Shown here piece after piece: positions 47,162-50,954 of a stretch of 64,000 nucleotides of DNA (its first letter is position 1; every line of letters begins with the position of its first letter). The position numbers and the translations under genes were made by a program. The DNA comes from Prochlorococcus sp. AG-409-P03 (GTDB taxonomy: Bacteria > Cyanobacteriota > Cyanobacteriia > PCC-6307 > Cyanobiaceae), in NCBI GenBank assembly GCA_003215295.1, contig QCKN01000005.1, positions 22,019 to 86,018 on the forward strand, in the 5' to 3' direction. The notes below the pieces were generated by a model, which was not told the origin of the DNA, ran no database searches, and saw only the letters and a program-made list of their open reading frames with translations.

Positions 47162-48052
47162 ATGGCACGTAAGGGAATAATTCTGGCTGGCGGAACGGGC
47201 AGCAGGCTGTACCCAGCCACTAAAGCTTTGAGTAAGCAGTTATTGCCTGTTTATGACAAGCCCATGATCTATTACCCGCTAACCACGCTTATGTTGGCAG
47301 GTGTGCGAGAAGTTCTTGTTATTACCACCCCAAAAGATCAGGAATCATTTCAACGCTTGCTAGGGGATGGTATTGCATGGGGTATGAGTATTAATTATGA
47401 GATACAAAATAATCCAGATGGTTTGGTTCAGTCCTTTCTTATTGGCGAGAATTTTTTAGATGGAGAGCCAGTAGTTTTAATTCTCGGAGACAACTTATTT
47501 CATGGTCAAGCTTTGGTTCAGGAACTTAAAGCTTGTGATGAATCTCTAAAGGGGGCGACTTTAATGGCATATCCTGTAAGAGATCCAGAGAGGTATGGTG
47601 TTGTTGAATTTGACGAAAGTCGCAAAGTGATATCGATTGAGGAAAAACCAAATTTTCCTAAGAGTCGTTATGCGATTACAGGGATTTATTTTTATGACTC
47701 AACAGTTGTAGAAAGAGCTAGGAAGGTTCAGCCATCAACGCGGGGTGAACTGGAAATTACAGATTTAAATCAAATGTATTTAAATGATGGAGACCTTCAT
47801 GTTCAAATCATGAGTAGGGGAATGGCTTGGCTGGATACGGGAACCTCTGATTCTTTGCATGAAGCTTCTAGCTATATACGCACACTGGAACACCGTCAGG
47901 GTTTGAAAGTTGGTTGCCCTGAGGAAGTAGCATGGAGGAAAGGTTGGATAGATGACCAACAATTTGAAACACTTGCTAGTGGACTTCTTAGGAGTGGTTA
48001 TGGTGAGTATTTACTGCACATTTTAGGAAAAGGAGAACTCAAATTACTTTGA
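47162..48052 (+). CDS. rfbA: Glucose-1-phosphate thymidylyltransferase
   Basis: Makes dTDP-glucose, the first step to dTDP-6-deoxysugars. 296 residues from the ATG at 47162 (MARKGIILAGGTGSRLYPAT), chosen over the upstream TTG because it matches the family start. GGTGSRLYPATKALSKQLLPVYDKPM is the nucleotide-binding signature; later LGDNLFHG and EEKPNFPKSRYAITGIYFYD. It overlaps rfbB by 4 bp. Confidence 0.95.
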   Translation: MARKGIILAGGTGSRLYPATKALSKQLLPVYDKPMIYYPLTTLMLAGVREVLVITTPKDQESFQRLLGDGIAWGMSINYEIQNNPDGLVQSFLIGENFLDGEPVVLILGDNLFHGQALVQELKACDESLKGATLMAYPVRDPERYGVVEFDESRKVISIEEKPNFPKSRYAITGIYFYDSTVVERARKVQPSTRGELEITDLNQMYLNDGDLHVQIMSRGMAWLDTGTSDSLHEASSYIRTLEHRQGLKVGCPEEVAWRKGWIDDQQFETLASGLLRSGYGEYLLHILGKGELKLL

Positions 48053-49131
48053 CTAACCCTAGGCTTAAGCAAGGTTCGAGAGTTCTTGTCACAGGAGGAG
48101 CAGGTTTTATTGGTGGATGCTTAATCAGAAGATTAATCAAAATGAATGATGTGGAAGTATTTAATATAGATAAGCTTGGTTATGCTAGCGATCTTTGCAG
48201 TATTCAACTTTGTGAAAACGCAAGTAGGCATCAATTAGTAAAAGCAGATTTAGCCGATAAAGATGCTACTCGTTCTGCTATTCACCGTGTAAATCCCGAT
48301 GTCGTAATGCATCTTGCTGCTGAAACACATGTAGATCGATCAATTGATGATCCAGAAGCATTTACTCGCAACAATGTAATAGGGACTCTTAATCTTCTTG
48401 AAGCTATTCGAGACCATTTCCAAGATATTTCTGATGAACGGAAAAGTAGCTTTGTGTTTCACCATATAAGCACAGATGAGGTTTTTGGCTCTCTAGATGA
48501 CAAAGGTTTTTTTTCAGAATTATCTCGCTATGAACCAAGATCACCTTATTCTGCTAGTAAGGCCTCAAGTGATCATTTGGTTAATGCATGGCACCATACT
48601 TATAAATTGCCTGTGATAATTACAAACTGCTCAAATAATTTTGGACCTTGGCAATTTCCAGAAAAGTTAATACCTCTTGCAATAATTAAAGGATTGTCTA
48701 ATGATCAGATTCCACTTTATGGAGATGGAATGAATGTAAGGGATTGGTTGTTTGTAGAGGATCATATTGATGCACTTATCTTGACAGTAAGCTATGGGAA
48801 AGTAGGCGAGTCCTATTGTATCGGAGGCTATGGAGAAAGAACTAACAAAGAAGTATTGAAGGCAATTTGTGAATTACTTGATAATAAGACGGGCAAGGAA
48901 GATTCTTATTCTAACTTAATTAAATTAGTGACTGATCGACCAGGTCATGATAGGCGTTATGCCATTGACTCCTCCAAGATAAGTGATCAGCTTAATTGGA
49001 AACCAAAACATACCTTCGAACAAGCTTTAGAAATAACTTTTGACTGGTATTTGAATAATCTTGAATGGACTAAAAGGATGTTAAATCGAAACTCTTATAA
49101 TGGTAAGCGATTGGGACTATTAAAAGATTGA
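48049..49131 (+). CDS. rfbB: dTDP-glucose 4,6-dehydratase
   Basis: Converts dTDP-glucose to dTDP-4-keto-6-deoxyglucose. 360 residues from a TTG start overlapping the rfbA stop. GxxGxxG in VTGGAGFIGGCLIRRL, MHLAAETHVDRSI, the catalytic HISTDEVFGSL and YSASKASSDHLV are all typical of RmlB. No rfbC or rfbD homologue follows; a short SDR does. Confidence 0.95.
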   Translation: MTNPRLKQGSRVLVTGGAGFIGGCLIRRLIKMNDVEVFNIDKLGYASDLCSIQLCENASRHQLVKADLADKDATRSAIHRVNPDVVMHLAAETHVDRSIDDPEAFTRNNVIGTLNLLEAIRDHFQDISDERKSSFVFHHISTDEVFGSLDDKGFFSELSRYEPRSPYSASKASSDHLVNAWHHTYKLPVIITNCSNNFGPWQFPEKLIPLAIIKGLSNDQIPLYGDGMNVRDWLFVEDHIDALILTVSYGKVGESYCIGGYGERTNKEVLKAICELLDNKTGKEDSYSNLIKLVTDRPGHDRRYAIDSSKISDQLNWKPKHTFEQALEITFDWYLNNLEWTKRMLNRNSYNGKRLGLLKD

Positions 49132-49132
49132 A

Positions 49133-49825
49133 GTGAATAAGATAATAGGAAATGGCATGCTTGCAAAAACTTTTGGGGGGTATCTACCAGAACAATTGAA
49201 TTGCATTATTTTTGCTTCAGGAGTTTCCAATTCACTATGCAATGAACCCTTGGAATTTCTTAGAGAAAGAAAACTGCTTGAAGAAAAATTAGCTGAGGTC
49301 GAATATGGTCAAAGATTTATATATTTTAGTTCATGTAGTACATATGATACTGATTTAGAGAAAACACCATATGTTCGACATAAGCTGTCAATGGAGTCTT
49401 TAGTTCTTAAATACACTAAGGGGATTGTTTTTCGACTCCCCCAGCTTGCTGGCCCCAACGCGCCATCTACAACAATATTGTCATCCATTAGAGAAAAAGC
49501 TCTAACACGATCAAAGTTTACCATTTGGGAAAATGCGAAAAGAAATATTCTGGACATATCTGATGTAAGACTTTTGATATTAAAGATTTTGTGTAATCAA
49601 AACTTGACGTCTAGATTGATTAATATAGCAAATAGAAATTATTATTCAGTCTTTGAAATAGTACAGACTTTCGAAAGACTTTTGAATTTAAAAATGGATG
49701 TAAATTACCTTAATAAAGGAACAGCCTATGAAATTGATATAAGTTCAATAGAAGAAATTATTGATGAGCTGGAAATCGATTTCGACAATTATCTAGAAAG
49801 AGTTATACGTAAGTATTACCTTTGA
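49133..49825 (+). CDS. Short-form NAD(P)-dependent sugar epimerase/reductase (extended SDR)
   Basis: 230 residues from a GTG start 1 bp after rfbB. The cofactor loop is IGNGMLAKTF, and only about 20 residues separate it from FASGVSNS, so the second and third strand region of a normal Rossmann fold is missing. The serine-rich strand FSSCSTYD and YVRHK (Tyr-xxx-Lys) give a plausible catalytic set. The family usually has about 300 residues. I have an unverified memory of similar short proteins in polysaccharide loci. Next to rfbAB it may act on dTDP-4-keto-6-deoxyglucose. Confidence 0.75.
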   Translation: MNKIIGNGMLAKTFGGYLPEQLNCIIFASGVSNSLCNEPLEFLRERKLLEEKLAEVEYGQRFIYFSSCSTYDTDLEKTPYVRHKLSMESLVLKYTKGIVFRLPQLAGPNAPSTTILSSIREKALTRSKFTIWENAKRNILDISDVRLLILKILCNQNLTSRLINIANRNYYSVFEIVQTFERLLNLKMDVNYLNKGTAYEIDISSIEEIIDELEIDFDNYLERVIRKYYL

Positions 49826-49868: not shown

Positions 49869-50954
49869 TTACCTTTCTAATTGGCTATTTTTGATTATTT
49901 TTAAATGTCTTCTGTGTAATAGGTATAACGACTTATTTCGTCCAAGTAGGATGATAGACAGTAGGCGAAGTGACTCCTTAAGTGATTTGCCCTCGATTAT
50001 GAAAAAGGGAAATAAACTTATAAATTTAATCAAAGCAGATAGTTTTCTGTTTGAATAAATATCAATCAGATACTCGTATTCTCTCATTAACAGTTCGTAT
50101 CTACTAAGAATATCTTTCTTTGCCGAAGCTTGCATTGATATCGAATTCAGGATGTGAGCTGTAAGAACATTAGTCTGGCTAATTCTCTTTATTGACGAAA
50201 CTTTTTGCCTTGCATCGGCTAATGATGGTGTAGCATTATTCAAGTGTCTTCTATAGTAGAAAAGGGTTGTATCTTTATACGCCACGTAACATTTAGGGTT
50301 TTTGGCTACAATGTATGGGGCTATAGTAAGATCACCGTAAGCATTCCTGCTCGAGGGACAATCTCTGATTATCTTTTCAAATTCTTCTAGGTTGAAATAT
50401 TTTCTTCTAAAAGAGTAGGCACTCCCTAGCCAGTAACCTCCCTTCCTAAATAAAATAGATTTCTTATAGTCAGATGACTCATTATAAAAGCCGTAATTCT
50501 TGGCTTTTATTCTGTCCATGTTCTTATGAGTTTCATCATAGATTGGAAGAGGGTTCCCTTCCCCGTTGATATGCTTATGCCTATGTGAACAGATAGAGAT
50601 TTTATCATTTTCTTCAAATATTGTTTTTATAATCTCTATTTTTTTGTTTCCCCACTTGTCATCTGAATCTAAAAAGAAGAGAATATCTGAGTTGCTCTCT
50701 CTTATGCCAGACAAGCAATTATGTAGAGGCCCCTTATTATCATTGCTTTTTAGAACCTTAATATTTTCCTGGTATTTCTCTAATATAAGTAGAGAGTTAT
50801 CGGAGCTGGCATCATCACAGATAATGATTTCGTCAGCTTGTTCTGTTTGGTGCAGAACAGATTGTATAGATTCCTCTAAAAAGCTTGCATTATTATAATT
50901 TAAAATAATTACAGAGCTCGTTAGGTTGTTCTTTTCGCTAGACAATTTATTCAA
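49869..50954 (-). CDS. Glycosyltransferase family 2
   Basis: 361-residue GT-A fold transferase: VIILNYNNASFLEESIQSVLHQT at the N-terminus, IIICDDASSDNS and the metal-binding FLDSDDKWG. The C-terminal 100 residues are basic and may associate with the membrane (LIKFISLFPFFIIEG). It converges on the SDR and probably adds a sugar to the same surface glycan. The sequence is strongly AT-rich like rfbB and the SDR. Confidence 0.87.
   Translation of the reverse strand: MNKLSSEKNNLTSSVIILNYNNASFLEESIQSVLHQTEQADEIIICDDASSDNSLLILEKYQENIKVLKSNDNKGPLHNCLSGIRESNSDILFFLDSDDKWGNKKIEIIKTIFEENDKISICSHRHKHINGEGNPLPIYDETHKNMDRIKAKNYGFYNESSDYKKSILFRKGGYWLGSAYSFRRKYFNLEEFEKIIRDCPSSRNAYGDLTIAPYIVAKNPKCYVAYKDTTLFYYRRHLNNATPSLADARQKVSSIKRISQTNVLTAHILNSISMQASAKKDILSRYELLMREYEYLIDIYSNRKLSALIKFISLFPFFIIEGKSLKESLRLLSIILLGRNKSLYLLHRRHLKIIKNSQLER

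Follow-up and report, generated by a model that had tools for sequence, protein, structure and literature searches.

In SDRs, strands beta2 and beta3 form the part of the NAD(P) site that receives the adenosine, and the beta1 loop, beta4, beta5 and the YxxxK motif hold the pyrophosphate and nicotinamide ends of the cofactor. Several described enzymes of sugar pathways bear comparison with the short protein analysed here, a "mini-SDR" encoded behind the first two genes of the dTDP-rhamnose type pathway in a Prochlorococcus genome. RmlD is a 4-ketoreductase of the same pathway with the extended-SDR fold, and three of ten mini-SDR members match PF04321, but RmlD has the whole Rossmann fold (298 and 299 aa in the two proteins compared) and the two enzymes co-occur in one genome (G410). 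GDP-6-deoxy-D-mannose reductase, RMD (PDB 6x3b), is likewise a 4-ketoreductase and leads the listed PDB fold matches by TM-score (0.74 on the query), although it is about 300 residues long and carries NADPH on a full Rossmann fold. The lan and urd clusters have the gene order Q-R-S-T, in which R is a 4-ketoreductase. LanR has been treated as the 4-ketoreductase that sets the stereochemistry of D-olivose, a sugar that is gluco at C4 (PMC8944477), and the grecocycline cluster, which has L-rhodinose and L-tolyposamine as its sugars, is listed with Q, S and T and no R (PMC4943663).

The TDP-antiarose synthases RubS3 and RblE are SDRs that act on TDP-4-keto-6-deoxyglucose without RmlC (PMC8152690). 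RubS3 differs from the mini-SDR in having GXXGXXG and the triad 111/135/139 of a full-length SDR, and a RubS3-type antiarose synthase was rejected as a candidate identity, since RubS3, with its full GXXGXXG spacing, belongs to another family. ORF13 of Citrobacter youngae is a normal-sized SDR in a Gtr-like periplasmic glycosylation system, where it acts on a polyprenyl-phosphate-linked sugar (PMC11127046).

Results

The window, the whole stretch of 64,000 nucleotides that was analysed, lies on contig C5 of an assembly (genome label G000) of 1.36 Mb in 47 contigs, 70.6% complete. Photosynthetic cytochrome genes in the window, like the nearest carrier of the mini-SDR gene, point to a Prochlorococcus-like cyanobacterium. 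The features discussed below are the following.

47162..48052, + strand: rfbA (rmlA), glucose-1-phosphate thymidylyltransferase; TIGR01207, 465.9 bits (cut-off 360.65)
48049..49131, + strand: rfbB (rmlB), dTDP-glucose 4,6-dehydratase; TIGR01181, 434.6 bits (cut-off 365.1)
49133..49825, + strand: mini-SDR gene, 230 aa, GTG start; PF01370 E=1.7e-8; family n=20
49139..49174, + strand: beta1 and glycine loop (KIIGNGMLAKTF), GxG in place of GxxGxxG; G6 and G8 invariant in 20/20; beta1 3-5 and alphaA 9-14 in the model
49175..49201, + strand: site of the missing beta2-alphaB-beta3-alphaC, with the 9-residue linker GGYLPEQLN; from the G8-I26 spacing and the model
49202..49234, + strand: beta4 and next loop, CIIFASGVSNS; G30 invariant, model strand 24-27
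49328..49333, + strand: catalytic Ser pair S66, S67; position 67 Ser or Thr in all members
49370..49384, + strand: YxxHK catalytic motif (Y80, H83, K84); Y, H and K invariant in 20/20
49541..49555, + strand: R137-NILD141 motif, equivalent to RDxxxVxD of extended NDP-sugar SDRs; R137 invariant in 20/20
49869..50954, - strand: GT2 glycosyltransferase; PF00535 E=2.7e-27; same low-GC block as the mini-SDR

A preliminary description of this DNA had placed a 230-residue SDR after rfbA and rfbB, with no rfbC or rfbD following. Both sugar genes score above their curated NCBIfam cut-offs, the operon lacks rfbC and rfbD, and the SDR reading frame is real, directly follows rfbB and carries every named motif where it was claimed to be. 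The rfbA and rfbB genes overlap by 4 nt and 1 nt separates the rfbB stop from the mini-SDR start, so that the three genes form a tight, operon-like unit of compact gene order. GC content is 32.3% in the mini-SDR gene and 34.1% in the GT2 gene, against 42.9% in the whole window, low values of the kind that a variable glycan island would show, and the GT2 is a possible user of the sugar product. Just upstream of the unit lies a phytanoyl-CoA dioxygenase-like gene (PF05721; 45935-46774, - strand) with a GC content of 36%.

By profile alignment, residues 12-227 of the protein align with RmlB/RmlD/GalE-type SDRs, and PF01370 (Epimerase) matches above its gathering score over profile positions 82-240 only. 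Its GxG loop, IGNGMLAKTF, occupies residues 5-14 and CIIFASGVSNS starts at residue 24; the Tyr and Lys of YVRHK (80-84) and the SSCSxY strand (FSSCSTY, 65-71) are retained, as had been described. The unusually short stretch reported before the FASGVSNS strand measures 17 residues (G8 to I26), where most ordinary SDRs have 45-71. In an alignment of 20 mini-SDRs, with relatives drawn from genomes, plasmids and viral contigs, and 22 ordinary or intermediate SDRs, the spacing from glycine loop to beta4 is 13-18 residues in every mini-SDR and 29-71 in the comparison proteins, where a few intermediates (29-38) stand apart from the bulk (45-71). The loop between Ser/Thr67 and Tyr80 is shortened too, to 12 residues from about 23, the actinobacterial branch excepted. 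Invariant in all 20 members are G6, G8, G30, Y80, H83, K84, E88, R101 and R137, with Ser or Thr at position 67; S67, Y80 and K84 line up with the triad motifs of full-length SDRs.

Compared with extended-type SDRs, the protein has the C-terminal nucleotide-sugar half (PF01370) and the Ser/Thr-YxxxK triad; its cofactor loop is GxGxxA/G, one residue shorter than TGxxGxxG, and its Rossmann sheet is incomplete, beta2-alphaB-beta3-alphaC being missing in both sequence and model. It is thus a nucleotide-sugar SDR in which beta1/alphaA runs straight into beta4. Strand beta1 survives with its GxG phosphate loop, and so do strands beta4-beta7, the nucleotide-sugar domain and the Ser/Tyr/Lys triad; the lost part is the half of the Rossmann sheet built on beta2 and beta3, which normally holds the NAD(P) adenosine. 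Conservation of the deletion in 20/20 members means that it reflects neither chance nor a frameshift, and a frameshift or wrong start was ruled out as the cause of the shortness because the deletion is internal and common to 20 proteins. The short fold characterises the whole family and is no peculiarity of the window locus. Other shortened SDRs in cyanobacterial genomes (L043, L011, L067, L068, L079 and L090; 246-272 aa, 29-38 residues from glycine loop to beta4) perhaps represent an intermediate reduction in which beta2 is kept without beta3.

Structure prediction, which the preliminary description had called for, gave a confident SDR fold lacking the adenosine-side strands (AlphaFold2 model from ten mini-SDR sequences; mean pLDDT 92.6, pTM 0.90), with the strand order beta1, beta4, beta5, beta6, beta7 and alphaA leading directly into beta4. 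Nucleotide-sugar SDRs of normal size (261-352 residues) account for every one of the top 50 PDB fold matches; the best include RmlB, GalE, GDP-fucose synthase and RMD with NADPH. Among the matches reported by PDB sequence searches none spans the whole mini-SDR family, and sequence and fold searches of the PDB found no solved structure of it.

The 20 members come from Cyanobacteria, Pseudomonadota, Bacteroidota, Actinomycetota and phage-like contigs, and are at present annotated only as "NAD-dependent epimerase/dehydratase". In trees from which the deletion columns were excluded, one branch with support of 95/88 (15 members) or 93/80 (20 members) separates them from the other SDRs, and this fits a single loss of beta2-alphaB-beta3-alphaC; the tree is unrooted, four actinobacterial members join near its base, and these may have a separate origin. 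The closest carrier is Prochlorococcus sp. AG-435-K18, whereas identity between the window protein and a Streptomyces member is only about 26%. The full short form is rare in the Cyanobiaceae, with full-length, size-matched hits only in the window genome, G087 and G410 among 400 genomes, and it occurs in 6 of 399 Pseudomonadota genomes, the source genome of the query included. A DNA search of E. coli with the Paenalcaligenes gene gave no matches. Short phage proteins were among the matches in a viral library search; known phage genomes yielded no match to the window protein, and for one phage member the only matches among them were Campylobacter phage epimerases, which aligned with 46-61% of the member's length.

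A search for homologues in polysaccharide loci, also proposed at the outset, found mini-SDRs in glycan clusters such as that of Spirosoma (Bacteroidota) and those of phage-like contigs. In G410, a 100% complete genome, the gene stands directly after a full rmlA-rmlC-rmlD-rmlB set at a spacing of 5 nt, and in Paenalcaligenes the order is rmlB-rmlA-GT56 (Glyco_transf_56)-mini-SDR. In two further Pseudomonadota genomes a GT2-coupled mini-SDR lies within a few kb of rmlB, and GT2, GtrA or large membrane-protein genes occur in the vicinity; in two others GT2, GtrA or GT-C genes adjoin it. Streptomyces and Kitasatospora members lie in natural-product clusters, that of Streptomyces together with rmlB, and many mini-SDRs belong to clusters without adjoining rml genes. 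All six mini-SDR-bearing Pseudomonadota genomes, the window genome and G410 have rmlB above cut-off, which is weak evidence because rmlB is common in general; it is missing from the incomplete G087 and from the records of Spirosoma (W01), Streptomyces (W02) and the phage-like G731 and G732. With several records lacking rmlB and one phage-like member near gmd- and fcl-type genes, the substrate may vary among members.

On the phage-like contigs L103, L104, L106, L107-L112 and L113 mini-SDRs sit amid many glycosyltransferase and methyltransferase genes, and on L104 the neighbours include GDP-sugar genes of gmd and fcl type. The arrangement at L187-L190 (Pseudomonadota), where a mini-SDR coupled to GT2 lies by GtrA and/or GT-C genes, suggests a Gtr-like module for periplasmic glycosylation that brings along an enzyme of its own for modifying the sugar.

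An angucycline-type cluster of Streptomyces (L180) is annotated in the order rfbA, rfbB, SDR, RfbH (3-dehydratase type), mini-SDR, NDP-hexose 2,3-dehydratase and a Gfo/Idh 3-ketoreductase-type gene. The position between RfbH and the 2,3-dehydratase is what we take to be the place of lanR/urdR. The Streptomyces member L028 (gap 17, GxG, T67, Y80, H83, K84, R137) shares the deletion and motifs of the window protein and occupies that presumed place, LanR itself being likened by its gene order and annotation. The actinobacterial mini-SDRs differ in forming a separate branch with a longer Ser-Tyr loop, and the substrate of LanR is a 2,6-dideoxy sugar.

As for rmlC and rmlD elsewhere, which the preliminary description had wished to see checked, no RmlD reaches the family cut-off in the window genome (best 57 of 224 bits), but there are two RmlC-family matches. 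One falls in a second deoxysugar cluster (L014, contig C1:145000-162000) with rfbF-, rfbG- and rfbC-like and methyltransferase genes, a CDP-sugar cluster unrelated to the window locus. The other lies on the phage-like contig C3 (L070, 27000-40000), which carries a T4-type single-strand DNA-binding protein (PHROG E=3.1e-33), the RmlC-type epimerase (a PHROG auxiliary gene), an SDR, and apparent sugar kinase, acetolactate synthase, panB and B12-radical-SAM genes; this stretch is probably a cyanophage co-sequenced with the cell. Given an assembly only 70.6% complete, absence of rmlC or rmlD is provisional. The mini-SDR itself has no match to TIGR01214 (RmlD; cut-off 224 bits) at E<=1 and none to PF00908 (the RmlC domain), its model showing an SDR fold. 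Among 29 relatives of the window genome, most have rmlC-rmlD or rmlD beside rmlB, which makes the order rfbA-rfbB-SDR unusual; two relatives from another genus have rmlA and rmlB side by side, without an intervening rmlC/D and without a mini-SDR. The proposal that the mini-SDR stands in for rmlC/rmlD was not borne out: G410 has it after a complete rmlACDB, which weakens the replacement reading, and many members have no adjacent rml genes.

Discussion

We lean towards the view that the mini-SDR is a catalytically intact miniature of the extended type, a 4-ketoreductase converting dTDP-4-keto-6-deoxyglucose to a 6-deoxy-D-hexose, with a quinovose-type sugar favoured. The earlier suggestion of an active enzyme with an altered cofactor site agrees with a triad and nucleotide-sugar residues that are invariant in 20/20 sequences while the adenosine-side strands are missing, and the suggested reduction to a sugar other than rhamnose is supported as possible by the linkage to rfbA-rfbB, synteny favouring the quinovose type. 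The cofactor use, substrate, stereochemistry and fate of the sugar that we infer for the window protein would be as follows. RfbA and RfbB would produce dTDP-4-keto-6-deoxy-D-glucose, which the mini-SDR would bind along with NAD(P)H. The cofactor would be gripped at its pyrophosphate and nicotinamide ends as in other SDRs, and the adenosine would be exposed to solvent or lie under a partner subunit. Tyr80, Lys84 and Ser67 would then aid delivery of a hydride and a proton to C4, giving a dTDP-6-deoxy-D-hexose, of quinovose type according to the LanR synteny lead and possibly of fucose type, and a nearby glycosyltransferase would transfer this sugar to cell-surface polysaccharide. By analogy with Streptomyces, reduction of C4 to the gluco configuration would yield dTDP-D-quinovose. 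The keto intermediate may also have an amino-sugar fate; the rest of the assembly has four strong matches to DegT-family aminotransferases, one of them on phage-like contig C3, and all are remote from rfbA-rfbB-SDR.

Because the adenosine half of the site is missing and the pyrophosphate/nicotinamide half is kept, the simplest reading is that the mini-SDR still uses NAD(P)H with its adenosine exposed or covered by a subunit. It seems rather unlikely that this is a minimal SDR able to work with no adenosine pocket of its own, in which the site is completed by a partner, be it its own dimer or RfbB, or a non-standard, non-adenylated nicotinamide cofactor is used. Completion by RfbB would make channelling of the intermediate possible.

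An alternative that we consider possible but doubtful is that the enzyme acts on another nucleotide sugar or as an epimerase (e.g., at C2, C3 or C4 of a UDP- or GDP-sugar), and that its link to rfbA-rfbB is one of shared cluster only. The mini-SDR clusters of Prochlorococcus L018 (in a genome 59% complete with no rmlB above cut-off), Spirosoma L024 and phage-like L110 lack rmlB, the L104 member has gmd/fcl-type neighbours, and GalE-type epimerases are among the fold matches, but the gene follows rfbB at 1 nt in the window and the rml set at 5 nt in G410, and the position of the Streptomyces member in its cluster also counts against this alternative.

A non-catalytic protein, whether an RfbB scaffold, a regulator or the product of a decaying gene, would account for the loss of the adenosine-binding half and for the low GC of 32.3%; an intact reading frame, a confident fold prediction and a triad and nucleotide-sugar residues invariant over phyla and phage-like contigs make this very unlikely. 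Scarcely probable, too, is a role in a three-component, Gtr-like system of periplasmic glycosylation, with the enzyme modifying a sugar linked to polyprenyl phosphate: ORF13 offers a precedent (PMC11127046) and the GT2-coupled mini-SDRs L187-L190 lie by GtrA and/or GT-C genes, but ORF13 carries the usual TGxxGxxG motif, the window copy adjoins neither GtrA nor GT-C, and the Streptomyces and Paenalcaligenes members stand in dTDP-sugar contexts. Finally, replacement of RmlC and/or RmlD to yield dTDP-L-rhamnose is highly improbable, for although the operon lacks both genes, unlike most of the 29 relatives, and the genome lacks an RmlD above cut-off, the protein has no 3,5-epimerase-like domain, rmlCD may simply be unsequenced, G410 has the complete rmlACDB upstream, and the two other-genus relatives have abutting rmlA-rmlB with neither rmlC/D between nor mini-SDR.

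For the organism, the product of the 4-ketoreductase favoured here is probably a rare deoxy sugar destined for the cell surface. The mini-SDRs make up a widespread but little-studied family whose active site, judged by its residues, appears intact: a compact group, found in four or more phyla as well as on phage-like contigs, that has lost the strands for the NAD(P) adenosine and kept all tested catalytic and nucleotide-sugar residues. A structure would reveal how little of the Rossmann fold suffices for NAD(P) catalysis, and knowledge of the function would fill in a step of those O-antigen, antibiotic and phage glycan pathways that have rmlAB but not the expected follow-up genes.
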